A stretch of 64,000 nucleotides of DNA, from contig CAWUHX010000062.1 in the NCBI GenBank assembly GCA_963922205.1, positions 124,001-188,000 of the forward strand, read 5' to 3'. The DNA comes from Romanomermis culicivorax. Its lineage: Eukaryota; Nematoda; Enoplea; Mermithida; Mermithidae. Position numbers and translations under genes: made by a program. The notes under the pieces are model-generated. The model did no database searches, had not been told where the DNA came from, and saw nothing but the letters and a program-made list of their open reading frames with translations. Shown here piece after piece: positions 3,559-44,189 of this stretch (within the stretch, counting starts at the first letter, position 1; the number at the start of each line of letters is the position of its first letter).

Positions 3559-4755
3559 TTTTCCAAATTTTGTCCATGCCCCGATAACTATAAGAAACGG
3601 TCAATGGAGGTGGTGTTGTGAAATTTCAATAGTGCCAACTTCTACAATATCCTAAAAGAATACTGTCCATCTGTTGATGATCAATTCCTCTTTTGCCAAC
3701 TACTCGGTAACCAATTGAACTGCACCGATGTATTCTCCCAAGTTATGTCCGACATTGGATTGTGTGCAAATTTCAATGGAATGAACTTCGCACCAATCAC
3801 AAGCCGCATCTCTAATTTGGGTAAAAATATAAACTCTTCACTTTGACTTAATTTTCATAGATTGCGTAGTTTTCTAGGCAAACTTGGAAGCTTATTCACT
3901 GCTTCTAAAATTGGTGGAATTCAGGTCAATAAGTCCAACATCCATTCGGTATTGAGCATCATTTTAAAGGTGAACAAGAAAGAATATTGCGGCAATTTGC
4001 GGAAATGGACTGGCGATGGATTCCATTACTCAATTCTCCAGCCAACTAAACCCCTATCCTTCTATGTCTTCAGCCACTTTCAGCCGAAATTCCACGCTGG
4101 GTACATCTTCAATGTTGGAATCAAGATAACAAACATCATTCGCCATACAGCCCACTTTGGTCGTTGTGTTAATAGATACGTAATGTTGCCTGGTATAGGT
4201 AGTTCGGGAGTACCTTTTGACCAATCTGCTTGCTTGCTTAGTTGCCTCACAAAACTGATATATGTTCAATGTGGCTGTTTCACCAGAGCCATTGACTCAC
4301 TGGAATTTCTGCTCAGTACTGAAAATGTGGATTTAGATTACATAAACATGTCTACACCTTGGTGTAGAACGAGTGCAGAAATGGATGGCTGTGACTCAAA
4401 GCACCTTATGCTACTGCACACGGATGAATTAATGTCTACAACTTGTCCTAGATGCTTACCTGTATGCATGGAAAGTGAATATTCGACTACAGTAACCAGC
4501 AAGAAGTTAACCAGCATACCACATTACATGAAAACTGACAGCAGTGTTGATGACCTAATTGTGGCGAACTTTTTTGTGGACTCATCCTTAGTTACAACTA
4601 TCTATGAAAATCCAGCTTTTACAACTGAGGATTTCATTGTCTATATTGGGAGTATTTTCAGTTTATTTTTTGGTATATCCTACATTTTTGTTTTGGAAGA
4701 AATTTTTAGATTTGTTTTGTACATCAGAGGGCTTTGTATTTCCAAAATTAAATAG
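3559..4755 (+). pseudogene. DEG/ENaC sodium channel copy A, 5'-truncated with nonsense codon
   Basis: Two exons of a degenerin/epithelial sodium channel subunit are visible: 3559-3820 and 3878-4755 (GT donor at 3821, TAG acceptor before 3878, phase 1). Exon 3 carries the extracellular cysteine cluster (CLLSCLTKLIYVQCGC, about residues 105-120 of the exon) and the pore/TM2 region YIGSIFSLFFGIS followed by a long hydrophobic stretch. This matches the DEG/ENaC GxS selectivity-filter segment. The first exon with TM1 and the FPA-TICN motif seen in copies B and C is absent from the 3.5 kb upstream. The upstream exon has an in-frame TGA soon after its SMEVVL stretch, where copy C has a lysine codon. 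Truncation plus nonsense argue for a pseudogene. It lies head-to-tail with copy B, and both are followed by similar TA-rich DNA. Confidence 0.8.
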
Positions 4756-5704: not shown

Positions 5705-8412
5705 ATGAACATACTCCCAAGTCAACTTTTGAACAAGCATTTAAAGTTGGGCCAGTGCTGCTATTACATGCTGGTATTGGTACTTATTTCATCTAGTCTA
5801 GCCATTGCTGCTGGAACCATCAAGCTCTATTTCAGCAATGCTGTCAAAAATAAAATAATCACAAATTTCGTGAAACATTTAGAATTCCCCGCAATCACTA
5901 TTTGTAACCAGTTGATCGCCAAACGAGTGCCTACATGCGAGATCCCTGCTTCCGGCTTTTATTGGCGGTTATTTTCTCTATTGCCTAAGCTGGAATATGG
6001 CATTTGGACCAAAAAAACCACAGATGAAGTAAGTCGTTTGGATTTTTCTTCGAATTCCTTAGTTACAGCATGTATTCCCTGTGTTGAAGGGCTTCCTGTG
6101 TGGTGCTGGAGCTGTCCCACTACTGGCCAATGTCAGGGTAGGTGTGACCATCTCGACCAGGGTTCAACAAAAATGGCCAAGTTTGGAACTCATGGATTGG
6201 CTGAATTGTCAATGCTATGGGTGGGATGTCATATGTTGCCATACAACATCTCTCACTCCTTAGAGCAACAAAGGGCTCCTGGTACAGTCACCAGTGTTGG
6301 AATGCATCCTGGATGGCACTGCAGCTGTCCCACCACTGACCAATGTTTTGGTAATTGTGACCATCACAGTCAGGGCTCAACAAAAATGTGTGGGTTGAGG
6401 ACCCCCGGATTGGCTGAATCATCAACCCTACAGGTGGAATGTTGTATGTTAAAATACAACACCTGTTCACTATGCATGACACATGAGTCAAAAGATGTCA
6501 CCAGTATAACTAAAGGCTATTTCTTGTACACAACTCTTCAGTCTAGCATAATCGAAAGAATTTCCTACAAGTGAGGGTCAGTACAGTGTAATGGCTGTCC
6601 AGCATGCTAAAATAACCTGGTGGTGCTAGATGACTCTCAACTATTGTTCTAAGTGTAAGCAAAATTTCCCTGTCATAAGTGGCTTCAAAGAGAGTAACAT
6701 CAGAAAAGTGTGTATGCTGTATGGCAACATACAACATTCCACCCATAGCATTGATGTCATAGCCAATCCACGGGTTCCAAAGCTGACCATTTTTATTGAG
6801 CCCTGGTCAGGCTGGTTACACCTACCCCGACATTGGCCAATGATGGGACAGCTACAGCGCCACCCAGGAAGCCCTTCAACATGTATAGACTCAAACTATA
6901 GTTTGCTTTCCAAATGCATTTTTCTTGCAAAATGTTGAAACCAAGTGCTACCTGTACTGCACGAAACAGTATCTTGAGTTACAGTAAAGGGAAGATTTTC
7001 GAGAATATTACAGTGCCTTGAGTGTTGTCATACTGTTGGTCGAATAAAAGTGCATCAACACTACAAATTCTAAGAAATCCCTGATTGACAGTTATTGCAT
7101 CAAAATTAATTAAGGCTTAATGATCAGGTAGCAAACTATATAACACTTGTAAAGACACAAAAATCCTAATTCTTTGATCCAATGTTCTATGATACAAAAT
7201 TTATATGATTTTTGTTAAGTTTTCTAAATTTTGTCCATGCCCTAATAACTACGAAAAACAGTCAATGGAGCAAATGTTTCAAAGTTTCAACAGCGCCAAC
7301 TTCTACAAAATCCTAAAAGAATACTGCCCATCAATTGATGATCAATTTCTCTCCTGCCAAGTATTTGGTAACCTGATGAACTGCAGTGATGTACTCTCGC
7401 AAGTCTTATCCGACATTGGATTGTGTACAAAATTTAATGGAATGGACTTGGCACCACTTGTAAGCCACAGGTCGCATTCAGGTAAAAATATAAATTTTTA
7501 ATCTTGACTTATTTACCCAGTTTGCCAAGTTTTATAGGCAAACTTGGAAGCTTCTTTAGGGCTTCAAAATTTCACGGATTACAGCTCAATCAATCAATTA
7601 TCCATTCGGTAGTGAGCTTTGTGTTAAAAGTTAACAAGAAAGAATATTGTGGAAATTTGCGGAAATGGACTGGTGATGGATTCCATTACTCTGTTCATCA
7701 GCCGACTAAACCCATACCGCTACATGTCTTGAGCCATTTTCAGTTGAAGTTGCATGCTGGATACATCTTTGACGTGGGAATCAAGGTAACGAACATCATA
7801 CGTAATACAGCCCATTTTGGTCGTTGTGTCAATAGGTATGTAATGTTGACGGGAAAAGGTAGTTCGGGAATGGCATTTGATAAATCCATTTGCTTGGTTA
7901 GTTGTCTGGCAAAAAAGATATATATTGAATGTGGCTGTTTCACAAGAGTCATCGACTCACTGGATTTGCTGCTCAGCACTGAAAATTTCGATCTGGATTA
8001 CATAAACATGTCTACACCTTGGTGCAGTACAAGACTGGAACTGGATGCCTGTGACGATGACCACCTTCTTTTAGGCCACACGGATGAATTCATGTCCATA
8101 AATTGCCCTAAATGCTTGCCTGTTTGTGTAGAAAGTGAATATTCCATGACAGTTACCAGCAAGAGGTTGAGGGGTGCACCTCATAACCTGAAAATTGACA
8201 GTTTTGTCAACGACCTAATTGTTGTCAATTTTTTTGTGGATTCATCCTTAGTCACAACTATCTATGAAAATCCAGCATTCACAACTGAAGATTTCATTAT
8301 TTATATTGGTAGCATTTTTAGTTTGTTTTTCGGAATATCATACATTTTTGTTTTGGAAGCAGTGTTCAGATTTGTTTTGTACATCAGAGAGCTTTGTATT
8401 TCCAGAATTTAA
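5705..8412 (+). CDS. DEG/ENaC family sodium channel subunit, copy B (three exons)
   Basis: Exons 5705-6028, 7220-7481 and 7538-8412 join in frame to about 486 residues, near the lower end of the family range. Family members are trimeric plasma-membrane cation channels with two membrane spans and a large cysteine-rich ectodomain. Exon 1 has TM1 (hydrophobic around residues 18-40) followed by the hallmark LEFPAITICNQL. Exon 3 has the CLVSCLAKKIYIECGC cysteine cluster and the pore/TM2 segment YIGSIFSLFFGIS. Donors are GTAAGT (6029) and GTAAAA (7482). The acceptor of intron 1 is TTGTTAAG rather than YAG; the acceptor of intron 2 is TATAG. No stop codon was found in the joined exons. The start is the first ATG of the open frame, but the frame is also open from a TTTGCAG acceptor-like site at 5683, so the N terminus may be longer. 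Intron 1 is filled with R1 repeats. Ligand and exact channel type are unknown. Confidence 0.8.
6075..6900. repeat. R1 dispersed repeats inside intron 1 of DEG/ENaC copy B
   Basis: Two inverted units (about 6081-6260 and 6275-6450) and one direct unit (about 6700-6890) of a roughly 150-200 bp repeat. Its core reads TGGCCAGTGGTGGGACAGC followed by a CCACCCAGGAAGCCCTTCAA-type block. The same repeat recurs at 38100-38640, 58740-59230 and 63300-63660. The long open frame running on from exon 1 to 6574 is read-through into this repeat. Confidence 0.7.
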
Positions 8413-9096: not shown

Positions 9097-9896
9097 GTTA
9101 GCTTTGGTGCACCGACAATTGAGCGCCGACAATTGAGTGCCGACAACTGAGCGCCGACTATAATGCATTATAATTGAGCGTTTTTTTTCATTTACTGAGC
9201 GCTACGGAATACTAGCATTTCAGTGATTATCTACCGTAATGTATATATGTCCATACGTCTAATATTATGAATCGAACAAATATGGTCATTTTTGATTCGT
9301 ATGACGAAGCCTAAGCCTAAGCCTAAGCCTAAGCCTAAGCCTAAGCCTAAGCCTAAGCCTAAGCCTAAGCCTAAGCCTAAGCCCAAGCCCAAGCCCAAGC
9401 CCAAGCCTAAGCCCAAGCCTAAGCCTAAGCCTAAGCCTAAGCCTAAGCCTAAGCCTAAGCCTAAGCCTAAGCCTAAGCCTAAGCCTAAGCCTAAGCCCAA
9501 GCCTAAGCCTAAGCCTAAGCCTAAGCCTAAGCCCAAGCCTAAGCCTAAGCCTAAGCTTAAGCCTAAGCCTAAGCCTAAGCCTAAGCCTAAGCCTAAGCCT
9601 AAGCCTAAGCCTAAGCCTAAGCCTAAGCCTAAGCCTAAGCCTAAGCCTAAGCCTAAGCCTAAGCCTAAGCCTAAGCCTAAATGCAAAATAGTTACTTCAA
9701 ACTGATTGGGTTATTTATCTGACATTAAATAGTCGGCGGCCAGTTGTCGGCGCTCAGTTGTCGGCGCTCAGTTATCTGGCGCTCAGTTGTCTGGCGCTCA
9801 GTTGTCTCGGCGCTCAGTTGTCAGCGCTCAGTTGTCGGCGCTCAATTGTCGGCGCTCAATTGTCTGGCGCTCAATTGTCGGGTCACGGTTAGCTTT
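9097..9896. mobile_element. Foldback-like element FB1 with telomere-repeat core
   Basis: A 782 bp unit (9106-9887) is bounded by a 9-bp direct repeat GTTAGCTTT (9097-9105 and 9888-9896). Its ends are inverted: CACCGACAATTGAGCGCC on the left and the reverse complement at the right end. Both arms are tandem arrays of a roughly 14-bp word, GACAATTGAGCGCC on the left (9112-9200) and GGCGCTCAGTTGTC on the right (9735-9880). Between them lies a telomeric TTAGGC array (9304-9680). Inverted arms made of short tandem repeats plus a 9-bp target duplication are features of foldback/Mutator-like elements. No transposase is present. The boundary call is strong; the superfamily is inferred. Confidence 0.8.
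9304..9680 (-). repeat. Interstitial nematode telomere repeat (TTAGGC)n, about 62 units
   Basis: Near-perfect CCTAAG repeats on the plus strand, i.e. TTAGGC on the minus strand, with about eight T-to-C changes giving CCCAAG units and one TTAAG unit. It lies inside the FB1 element and is flanked by non-telomeric DNA, so it is not a chromosome end in this assembly. The lysine/proline and leucine/glycine open frames across it are artefacts of the repeat. Confidence 0.95.
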
Positions 9897-10941: not shown

Positions 10942-12019
10942 TTGTGGTGGGGCGTATTCCTAAAACAGCGTTTCCTAAAACAGCGTTTCCCTAAAACAGC
11001 GGATTCCTAAAACAGTGTTTCCTAGAACAGCGGATTCCTAAAACAGCGTTTCCTAAAACAGTGGATTCCTAAAATCTATGTAACCATTGATAATTGGCTA
11101 CAAAATTTAGAAAATCGATTTAATAATGGTGAAATTGATTTGAATCAATATTTACGAGGCGTGGCTTATAATTTGTCCGAACCTGTAGCGTTTTAAAAAT
11201 AATTTTTGTCAATAAAAGAATATTGTAGTAAAAAATTGAATGTTATTGTTATGTGCTCTCATTTTGCGCCGAATTGTTGTAATACAAAATTGAATGTTAT
11301 CGTTATGTGCTCTCATTTTGCGCCGAAAACCATGCACATAGTTTTTTTGGTGTTTATTTTAAACGTTTAAGCATCTACAAACGTTTGCATTTGAAAAAAC
11401 AGTTTTCTTTCAAAAGTCTACAAAAATCTGCATTTTTTGCCCAAAAAAATAAAAAGCTACTAAAATTTTGCTTCGCATCAATTGACACTTTTTCCATTTT
11501 GAATGAAAAATAGCGAATTTCGCAATGATTAAACCCCCATGCATTTGCATACGGATAAGACACATCGTTGGAGAACAATTGCAAAGATAGTGGATATACG
11601 CCAATGACTACATATTTACTAAGTTAATGGTTAGTCAATGTTCGTTTATTATGTAACAAAAACAGATACTTTTCATTTATAAAAGCACGATCTGAGCAAA
11701 ATAAACTTTTTCAACAGGAATCTAGTGTAAAGAAACTGAATGACAAATTGTGCCCATATATCATATACTACGAACCACTGTTTTAGGAAAACGCTGTTTT
11801 AGGAAACGCTGTTTTAAGAAAACGCTGTTTTAGGAAACACTGTTTTAGGAAAACGCTGTTTTAGGAAACGCTGTTTTAAGAAAACGCTGTTTTAGGAAAC
11901 ACTGTTTTAGGAAAACGCTGTTTTAGGAAACGCTGTTTTAGGAATCCGCTGTTTTAGGAAACGCTGTTTTAGGAAATGCTGTTTTAGGAACCCCTGTTTT
12001 AGACCTAAACCTGTGGTGG
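10942..12019. mobile_element. Foldback-like element FB2 (about 1.06 kb)
   Basis: Inverted arms are arrays of a roughly 16-17 bp word, CCTAAAACAGCGTTTC on the left (10957-11073) and its complement GAAACGCTGTTTTAGG on the right (11779-12002). Outermost bases are GG on the left and CC on the right. The element is bounded by TTGTGGTGG (10942-10950) and CTGTGGTGG (12011-12019), eight of nine matching. It interrupts a tRNA-derived SINE whose uninterrupted relatives give the empty site. The core of about 700 bp holds a short coding remnant and a tandem duplicate of a TTATGTGCTCTCATTTTGCG-type segment near 11240-11330. Same architecture as FB1 and FB3, but different arm sequence. Confidence 0.8.
11071..11196 (+). 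pseudogene. Coding remnant inside FB2, possibly the C-terminal end of a transposase
   Basis: An open frame ends in TAA at 11194-11196 and includes NWLQNLENRFNNGEIDL and QYLRGVAYNLSEPVAF. It is followed by AATAAAAG, a poly(A)-signal-like word, at about 11212. The arm sequence meets the open frame directly, so the rest of the gene would have been lost. Its style recalls C-terminal tails of Mutator-like transposases, but this is recall and not a demonstrated match. Confidence 0.35.
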
Positions 12020-42170: not shown

Positions 42171-44189
42171 CTATTTAATTTCGGAAATAAAAAGCCCTCT
42201 GATGTACAAAACAAGTCTAAAAATTGCTTCCAAAACGAAAATATATGATACACCAAAAAATAAACTGAATACACTCCCAATATAGATAATGAAATCTGTG
42301 GTCGTGAAGGCTGGATTTTCATGGATAGTTGTCACTAATGAGGAATCCACAAAAAAATTGGCGACAATAAGGTCGTCGACACTACTGTCGATGTTCAAGT
42401 GACGTGGTATGCTCCTTAACTTCTTTCTGGTTACTGTTGTGGAATATTCACTTTCCATGCAAACGGGCAAGCATTTGGGACAAGTTGTGGACATGAATTC
42501 ATCAGTATGCAGTAGCATAATGTGCTTTGAGTCGCAGGCATCCATTTCTGTGCTTGCTCTACACCAAGGTGTGGACATGTTTATGTAATCTAAATCCACA
42601 TTTTCAGTGCTGCGCACTGAATCCATTGAGTCAAGGGCTCTTGAAAAACAGCCGCATTCGACATATATGAGTTTTGCAAGGCAACTAACCAAGCAAGCAG
42701 ATTTGTCGAAGGGTATTCCTGAACTACCAATACCAGGTAGCATTACAAATCTAGTGACACAGCGACCAAAGTGGGCTGTATGGCGAATGATGTTTGTTAC
42801 CTTGATTCCTATTTCAAACATGTAGCCGCCATGCAATTTCTGCTCAAAGTGACTTAGAACAAATAGTGGCATGGGTTTGTTTGGCTGATGAATAGCGTAA
42901 TGGAATCCCATGCCAGTCCATTTCCGCAAATTTCCACAATACTGTTTCCTGTTCACCTTCAAGGTGATGGTCAATACCGAACGAATGTTAGATTGATTAA
43001 GCAATACTCCATAAATTTTTGAAGCAGCAAATACACTTCCAAATGTGCCTAGAAAACGTGACAAATGGGGAAAATCAGGTCATGATTCAAAATTCAATTA
43101 TTTACCCAAATCAGAGATGTGGTTCGCGATTGGTGCAAAGTGCATTCCATTGAAATTTGCACACAATCCAATGTCCAACATGAGTGGGGAGAATACATCG
43201 CTGCAGTTCAATGGTTCACCAAATAGTTGGCAGTAGACAAATTGTTCATGAATAGATGGGCAGTATTCTCTGATTACTTTGAAGGAATTGACACTATTAA
43301 AATTCTTCAATACCAATTCCAAGGGACGTTTCTGGTAATCATTGGGGCATTGACAAAATTTGGCATACTTAACAGGAAGATATACTTTTATTGGGATTGT
43401 AAAATTTGATATGACATGAACAATGAGTTAGGATCCTTGTGTCTTTTTGGATTTTATAGAGTATGCTACCTGATCATTATTCCTCAGAAATGGTGAGATG
43501 CCATCTTATCATATTCCTGGATGAAAGGGTCTGCTGCTGTAGAAAAATAACGTTCAATTTGACATATAAGCCACATGTGCCACTGCATTAATCTGATGCT
43601 TGGTCCCTTGACACATTTCTATATGCCACAACCAGTATGCAATAGTATGTGATAGGACTTGCTACTTTTAGGCTATCAAAGCCAAAGAGCCAACTGTGTT
43701 TACATATATCGTATCTATTCTATCTATCATATATACTCTATGTTATATTGTAATTCTATCATATGCATACCCACTCCATAATTCCAAATGGCTTACTTCG
43801 TCTTCTAATTTTTTGTTCCAGATACCACCCTCGAGCCTTGGCAATAGAGAAAAATATCGCCAAAGATAGCCTGAAGCTGGAATCTCGCATGTAGGTACTC
43901 GTTTGGCTATCAATTGGTTACAAATAGTGATTGCCGGGAATTCTAGCTGCTTCACTACATCTGTAATTATTTTATTTTTGATGGCATTGCTGAAATAGAG
44001 CTTGATGGTTCCAGCACTGATGGCTAGACTAAACAAGATAAGCGTCGATACTAGCAGGTAATGACAGCATTGGCCCAACTTTAAATGCTTTTTCAGTAGC
44101 CAATTTCGGAATATATAAGGACAAATTTTTCCATCAGATGATACCATTCCACTGACGTTTTTTACCTTGGTTTTTGAAATTTGCATCAT
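42171..44189 (-). CDS. DEG/ENaC family sodium channel subunit, copy C (three exons)
   Basis: Minus-strand exons 44189-43797, 43367-43106 and 43048-42171 join in frame to about 510 residues with no stop. Exon 1: TM1 (around residues 40-65) and LEFPAITICNQL. Exon 2 is 262 nt, as in copies A and B. Exon 3: CLVSCLAKLIYVECGC and the pore/TM2 segment YIGSVFSLFFGVS followed by a hydrophobic span. Donors GTAAGC and GTAAAT; acceptors CTGTTAAG (unusual AAG) and TTCTAG. The start is the first of two ATGs at 44189; CAAGGTAAAA just inside might instead be a donor, so the N terminus is not firm. Predicted product: a plasma-membrane cation channel subunit with a large extracellular domain. The absence of damage suggests it is functional. 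The methyltransferase lies 0.95 kb upstream on the same strand. Confidence 0.85.

Follow-up and report, generated by a model that had tools for sequence, protein, structure and literature searches.

A 782-bp element in the genome of Romanomermis culicivorax, a roundworm that parasitises mosquitoes, contains a block of the nematode telomere repeat TTAGGC, and this block is inherited transposon cargo. Copies of the element are dispersed through the genome, lie between 9-bp duplications that differ from copy to copy, have in some cases uninterrupted counterparts of their targets, hold the repeat in a constant orientation and share barcodes. It is very likely that the element is one copy of a non-autonomous foldback DNA transposon family with an inherited telomere-repeat array as its core, where a Mutator-like (MULE) transposase would act in trans and the array would have originated by healing or capture. 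The window is the whole 64,000-nucleotide stretch of DNA that was analysed.

Anatomy of the window element

The element occupies positions 9106-9887 of the window, as read directly from its sequence (Table 1). At positions 9307-9680, Tandem Repeats Finder reports 62.3 units of AAGCCT, which is TTAGGC on the minus strand, with 97% matches. The arms on its two sides are built from the word GGCGCTCAGTTGTC, which occurs at up to 2 mismatches three times on the minus strand (9114-9155) and ten times on the plus strand (9735-9879); these 13 matches are all that exist in the 64-kb window, where 0.17 are expected from shuffles. Similarly, TTAGGCTTAGGC has 59 matches at up to 1 mismatch, compared to 0.17 expected, and 58 of the 59 are inside the element. 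The arms of the window copy are complementary at 92-96% over 45-49 nt (two inverted pairs). They are long inverted arms built of tandem direct repeats, which is a foldback feature, and the label 'foldback-like' used in an earlier note on this DNA is correct as to anatomy; its coordinates, unit count, element length and 9-bp target duplication all agree with direct reading. The two termini are unlike in their outermost bases (GGTGCACC versus C[A/G]TGACCC) and form an imperfect terminal inverted repeat.

Table 1. Positions of the window element's parts (window coordinates) and of the second transposon family (contig coordinates or loci).
Feature	Position	Strand	Basis
Target-site duplication, left copy, GTTAGCTTT	9097..9105	.	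direct reading
Target-site duplication, right copy, GTTAGCTTT	9888..9896	.	direct reading
Whole element, 782 bp, type A family member	9106..9887	+	
Left terminus GGTGCACCGAC; in some copies the variant GGTTAACCGAC	9106..9116	+	
Left arm, 3 copies of GGCGCTCA[A/G]TTGTC	9114..9155	-	
Left core flank, conserved among type A copies	9156..9306	+	
Telomere-type array (TTAGGC)n, ~62 units, with TTGGGC and TTAAGC variants	9307..9680	-	
Right core flank ATGCAAAATAGTTACTTC...CATTAAATAG	9681..9731	+	
Right arm, 10 copies of GGCGCTCA[A/G]TTGTC	9735..9879	+	
Right terminus GTCGGGTCACG; in the family mostly GTCGGGTCA[C/T]G	9877..9887	+	
Second family copies	C5:265205-265765 (L109, L110, L113-L115), L119, L124-L132		

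The window has further features of its own. A second foldback-like element at 10951-12003 has inverted GCGTTTCCTAAAACA-type arrays, a core with a 54-bp repeat and an apparent 8-bp duplication, TGTGGTGG; it adjoins a tRNA-like match at 12017. The window also has three long reading frames that resemble one another, at 3847-4755, 7486-8412 and 42171-43079. The frame at 7558-8412 matches an R. culicivorax protein carrying Pfam PF00858, which we take to be the amiloride-sensitive sodium channel family, with 74% identity. The best matches of two window proteins are in R. culicivorax with identities of only 38% and 74%; as these values are below the level of identical proteins, the matches were interpreted as paralogues, or as genes that the older, fragmented annotation lacks.

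Family size and sampling

The genome search covered a 359,112,060-bp assembly with 595 contigs. R. culicivorax v2 (359.1 Mb, 595 scaffolds) is described as PacBio HiFi contigs scaffolded with a HiFi and Nanopore assembly (PMC10879605). Across the genome, exact matches to the arm word number 2,065 (979 + 1,086), and its reversed control pattern has none. The 22-bp left end occurs exactly at 107 places, and there are 223 matches to the inner flank and 148 to the type A core flank (both at up to 2 mismatches), and 142 matches to the type A junction of flank and array (at up to 3 mismatches).

Copies were read from two samples. The arm-word places listed on contigs C1-C5 yielded 14 two-armed elements and the fragment L009, and 45 further loci (L045-L089) among the first 50 of 100 listed inner-flank places (of 223) yielded 42 two-armed elements and three one-armed loci; L040-L044 duplicate loci of the first sample and were omitted from the 45. 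Together with the window copy, this gives 57 two-armed copies, all with opposed 14-bp arrays, the sample having been chosen for two opposed arms. The earlier note made its reading depend on a second copy with a telomeric core; such copies were found, and TTAGGC is present in all 57 two-armed copies read. Inspection of L100 by eye added two further copies, both with TTAGGC. In 55 of the 56 copies oriented by script, the repeat reads GCCTAA in the direction away from the GGTGCACC-type end; no left end could be recognised in the remaining copy, L056. An assembly artefact was rejected on the match of the assembly to a published long-read assembly and on the agreement of many independent loci.

The one-armed loci are outside the 57. 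L009 (about three units) and L058 contain TTAGGC repeats, and L050 and L051 are without an array. These last two (in the regions of C14:897648 and C14:1022920) consist of the element's left half, truncated before the array, and are one duplicated fragment with 94.7% identity over 1.4 kb past the truncation. As a candidate for a telomere-free sister, the fragment was rejected as a truncated copy in a duplicated segment, with a longest frame of 151 codons in the stretch read. At C281:361400-364200, two opposed left ends 2.6 kb apart turned out to belong to two ordinary copies of the family.

Target duplications and uninterrupted targets

Element ends could be placed in all but one of the 57 copies; the exception, L083, has an end that runs into N and was dropped, leaving 56. 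The 9-bp duplications are perfect in 41 of the 56 and have one mismatch in 4, and the remaining 11 copies have no in-register 9-bp match, a few of them with what look like 8-bp or shifted duplications. When left and right sites of different elements were cross-paired, 0 of 3,080 pairs were perfect, which rules out chance duplication. The duplications vary in sequence between copies, and just 1 of the 41 perfect ones is telomere-like. This duplication, AGGCTTAGG at L046 (C8:781293 region), is surrounded by a short stretch of degenerate TTAGGC.

The flanks of the 45 elements whose duplications have at most one mismatch were joined and searched against the loci read. For 10 of the 45 (L033, L034, L035, both copies in L038, L045, L048, L069, L071 and L085), a paralogous target aligns unbroken across the junction, with the homologous 9-bp site present once and with no array. 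Identities range from 73 to 89%, several of them between 73 and 79%; the two sites of L038 are in locally repetitive DNA, and the match of L048 is only 55 bp long. L078 also aligned, with gaps, and was left uncounted. The joined flanks of the window copy gave no span among the loci read. At the 10 loci, therefore, the repeats did not precede insertion, which contradicts the possibility, raised in the earlier note, that TTAGGC had been present before the arms. Insertion into pre-existing TTAGGC was rejected on these empty sites and because no more than one of the 41 perfect duplications is telomere-like. Further, the joined type A core flanks have a median pairwise divergence of 2.7% (31 copies), indicating that the family is fairly young.

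Inheritance of the array

The copies have two main classes of junction between array and element: type A with 33 copies (31 with both sides recognised) and type B with 21 copies, where the array is joined straight to the arm side; there are also two singletons. The arrays carry class-specific barcodes. In particular, an ordered higher-order block of GCCCC-type variants occurs in 18 of 33 type A copies versus 0 of 21 type B copies, and the AAGCCCCT unit in 24 of 33 versus 0 of 21; AAACAT-type units occur in 18 of 21 type B copies versus 0 of 33 type A copies. As barcodes are common to copies at different loci, the arrays descended with the element rather than being freshly added at each site.

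This bears directly on a different account, where TTAGGC was added locus by locus, before or after insertion, through telomerase repair, chromosome fusion or insertion into existing repeats. The genome does contain interstitial TTAGGC arrays without recognised arms, and the duplication AGGCTTAGG of L046 would fit such an origin; against it, the same junctions and shared barcodes recur at different loci, targets are uninterrupted for 10 of 45 copies, and 40 of the 41 perfect duplications are other than telomere-like, making local addition very improbable. The earlier proposal that the telomere block moved as cargo of a transposable element is instead supported by the duplications, the empty sites, the shared barcodes and the constant orientation.

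Across copies, arrays are 3 to about 137 units long, and the 12 type A copies that are within 1% of the majority core flank span 6 to 62 units; array purity, calculated by tenths, has no simple gradient. Overall, of the 76 type A core flanks that match exactly, 75 adjoin a TTAGGC array (71 with an exact array start, 1 with one mismatch and 3 with a more diverged array; 1 with none). Such near-complete retention may reflect a benefit that the element draws from telomere-binding proteins. In L133 (C122:705025-705130), an exact type A core flank gives way to non-telomeric sequence precisely where the array would start; this locus is either a truncated copy or a telomere-free relative.

Candidate transposases

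The family is probably a non-autonomous MULE foldback element. The 9-bp length of the 41 perfect duplications is within the 8-10 bp range described for MULEs (PMC5225508), and all 57 copies have long inverted ends with subterminal tandem repeats, another MULE trait. Moreover, the MULE domain PF10551 has at least 122 matches in the genome (150 of 248 candidates scored). An autonomous partner was sought by the proximity of MULE matches to element ends, and none was found among the matches listed: all of the 100 left ends listed (of 107) lie at least 21.8 kb from the nearest listed match, and among the 100 listed inner flanks (of 223), the match 1.4 kb from the flank at L082 is outside that copy's perfect target duplication.

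Merlin and Galileo elements make 7-9 bp duplications, and Galileo is itself a foldback element. Both facts, and the failure to find an autonomous copy among the listed matches, favor a mover other than a MULE, from a superfamily that duplicates about 7-9 bp of its target (Merlin, P/Galileo-like or hAT-like). We consider such a mover unlikely, as 41 of 56 copies have a perfect duplication of 9 bp, MULE domains are numerous in this genome, and the MULEs of Aedes aegypti have this same anatomy of subterminal 9-15 bp repeats and 8-9 bp duplications (PMC5225508). Based on the element's anatomy (8-9 bp duplications, long inverted ends and 9-15 bp subterminal repeats) and the search for an autonomous copy, a MULE is likely but unproven.

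Non-autonomous helentrons often have a microsatellite core between short inverted repeats, an architecture that would suit a repeat-bearing element such as this one. Helitrons and helentrons are not known to make a target duplication; with a perfect 9-bp duplication in 41 of 56 copies, a helentron or Helitron-type element is hardly conceivable and was rejected.

Other TTAGGC arrays and a second transposon family

Runs of 25 perfect TTAGGC units have 5,055 overlapping matches in the genome. The first 10 distinct listed arrays with at least 25 perfect units (contigs C4-C6) were taken as a sample, and short flanks were read for nine. The window family holds one of the 10 (L035). Two of the other nine adjoin the end of another inverted-repeat element (GGTACTACTGTGCGAGG...), which in one case is present on both sides of the array. 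The stretches read for the remaining seven contain no window-family end or core flank; in three of these (C4:1595168, C4:1664606 and C5:2105012), the array itself still continues through the stretch read on one side or both. Near the six C4 arrays besides L035, the arm-word list, which covers C4 fully, has no exact arm word. The window family is therefore not the sole source of long TTAGGC arrays. The earlier suggestion of a route for seeding telomeric repeats holds in that dispersed copies carry TTAGGC, and is limited in that the family accounts for a single array among the first 10 listed.

On contig C4, a pair of long TTAGGC arrays separated by about 15 kb (C4:1345060-1345666 and C4:1360155-1360756; L101-L104) is flanked by nearly identical sequence and lacks family arms. 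This duplicated array unit is a possible additional vehicle for interstitial telomere repeats.

A second family of inverted-repeat transposons, with ends GGTACTACTGTGCGAGGTGCACACCCACCTTATAGC..., also has TTAGGC cores (Table 1). Its inner end has 43 genome matches at up to 3 mismatches. By eye, TTAGGC was found in 10 of the 11 copies with at least one junction read, and in 8 of the 11 the arrays are opposed, head to head (TTAGGC...GCCTAA). The eleventh copy, on C406 (L122/L123), has no TTAGGC in the stretches read, which cover its ends and not its middle. Copy L129 has a perfect 8-bp duplication, GATGAATT; among the other copies read, duplications are imperfect or absent.

Origin of the telomere repeats

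In the proposed mechanism, a MULE transposase acting in trans would bind the ends with their 14-bp subterminal repeats, move the element and make the 9-bp duplication, and the telomere block would travel as cargo. The core would have gained the block through a break within the element that telomerase healed, or telomeric DNA filled, before the break was rejoined. Such entry would have occurred at least once and perhaps twice, as types A and B differ in both junctions and barcodes. The spread of lengths suggests that arrays later grew and shrank by slippage or unequal exchange. Most nematode chromosomes are described as capped by TTAGGC (PMC9071541). In this genome, the telomerase RNA-binding domain PF12009 has one match (E 1.4e-15) in an open frame of 589 aa; the outermost 400 bases contain a TTAGGC array at 0 of the 10 ends of contigs C1-C5.

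The route of acquisition may have been a telomerase-healed break, telomere capture or microsatellite growth, and a hexamer array born by slippage would look similar to one made by telomerase. The last route implies that the array is an ordinary microsatellite, born in a miniature transposon without telomerase, and that its match to the telomere is coincidental. Microsatellites and satellites that ride on MITEs are known, such as GTCY in insects and Xstir in Xenopus (cited in PMC6947457), and the array lengths of the window family vary widely between nearly constant flanks. We nevertheless judge a microsatellite origin improbable: the repeat unit is identical to the telomere hexamer of nematodes, and a second transposon family with unrelated ends has the same hexamer, in opposed arrays in 8 of 11 copies read, an arrangement that a repeat of single orientation would not predict; moreover, the C406 relative in that family shows none in the end stretches read.

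Breaks that were healed with telomere repeats and then rejoined would explain both the opposed arrays and the different junctions. A broader reading, which we put forward tentatively as a possibility, is that DNA transposons in this genome repeatedly gained telomere repeats through telomerase-healed, rejoined breaks in two or more unrelated families, among them the foldback family with its two junction classes and the GGTACTAC family with its head-to-head arrays, and broadcast them as cargo.

Discussion

Interstitial telomere sequences are abundant in animals, and transposon-carried TTAGGC is one concrete answer to how the repeats come to be far from chromosome ends. Here, the vehicle is visible, together with its ends, target duplications, empty sites and inherited barcodes, and it belongs to a family of more than 200 copies, with 142 matched at the junction of flank and array. 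In C. elegans telomerase mutants, interstitial tracts are described as templates for telomere maintenance and as sites of fusion repair (PMC9071541). As the tracts have these roles, a transposon that seeds them may alter how a genome copes with telomere loss. If true, repeated acquisition would give interstitial telomere sequences a general source that can be tested for; the genomes of other nematodes and animals can be searched for inverted ends and duplications around such tracts.

Several components of this system are already known, namely tandem repeats on small DNA transposons (PMC6947457) and foldback MULEs (PMC5225508, PMC4486113). A multi-copy family with a telomere-repeat core did not appear in the literature searched, which consisted of titles and the starts of abstracts, with subscription papers and repeat databases outside its scope; in the same literature, there was no description of a DNA transposon with a telomeric core.

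The closest anatomical parallel is found in the Muta1-14 families of Aedes aegypti MULEs. As described in PMC5225508, all of them have 8-9 bp duplications; 12 of 14 have terminal inverted repeats longer than 100 bp, and 10 of these 12 have subterminal tandem repeats of 9-15 bp. The duplications of Muta1 have no apparent sequence preference, and the Aedes families have non-autonomous derivatives. The R. culicivorax family resembles them in its duplications, long inverted ends, subterminal repeats and non-autonomous form; unlike the Muta families in that description, it has a telomeric core, and its link to a MULE transposase is a probable one.

Among plant foldback MULEs, FARE1 and MuTAnT are described as Mutator-class elements with modular fold-back inverted arms, with 218 copies of MuTAnT (PMC4486113). 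The window family shares the fold-back inverted arms and is similar in size to the MuTAnT family. However, MuTAnT inserts into microsatellites, whereas the R. culicivorax element carries the repeat inside itself. The GTCY MITEs and Xstir (cited in PMC6947457) likewise have a tandem array inside a small DNA transposon; the R. culicivorax family differs from them in that its array is the telomere repeat and its arms are a second tandem repeat.

Finally, C. elegans also has dispersed internal TTAGGC tracts, of which 1,229 were counted and whose abundance was called a mystery (PMC9071541). The description consulted names no transposon vehicle; in R. culicivorax, by contrast, a vehicle can be seen, complete with ends and target duplications.
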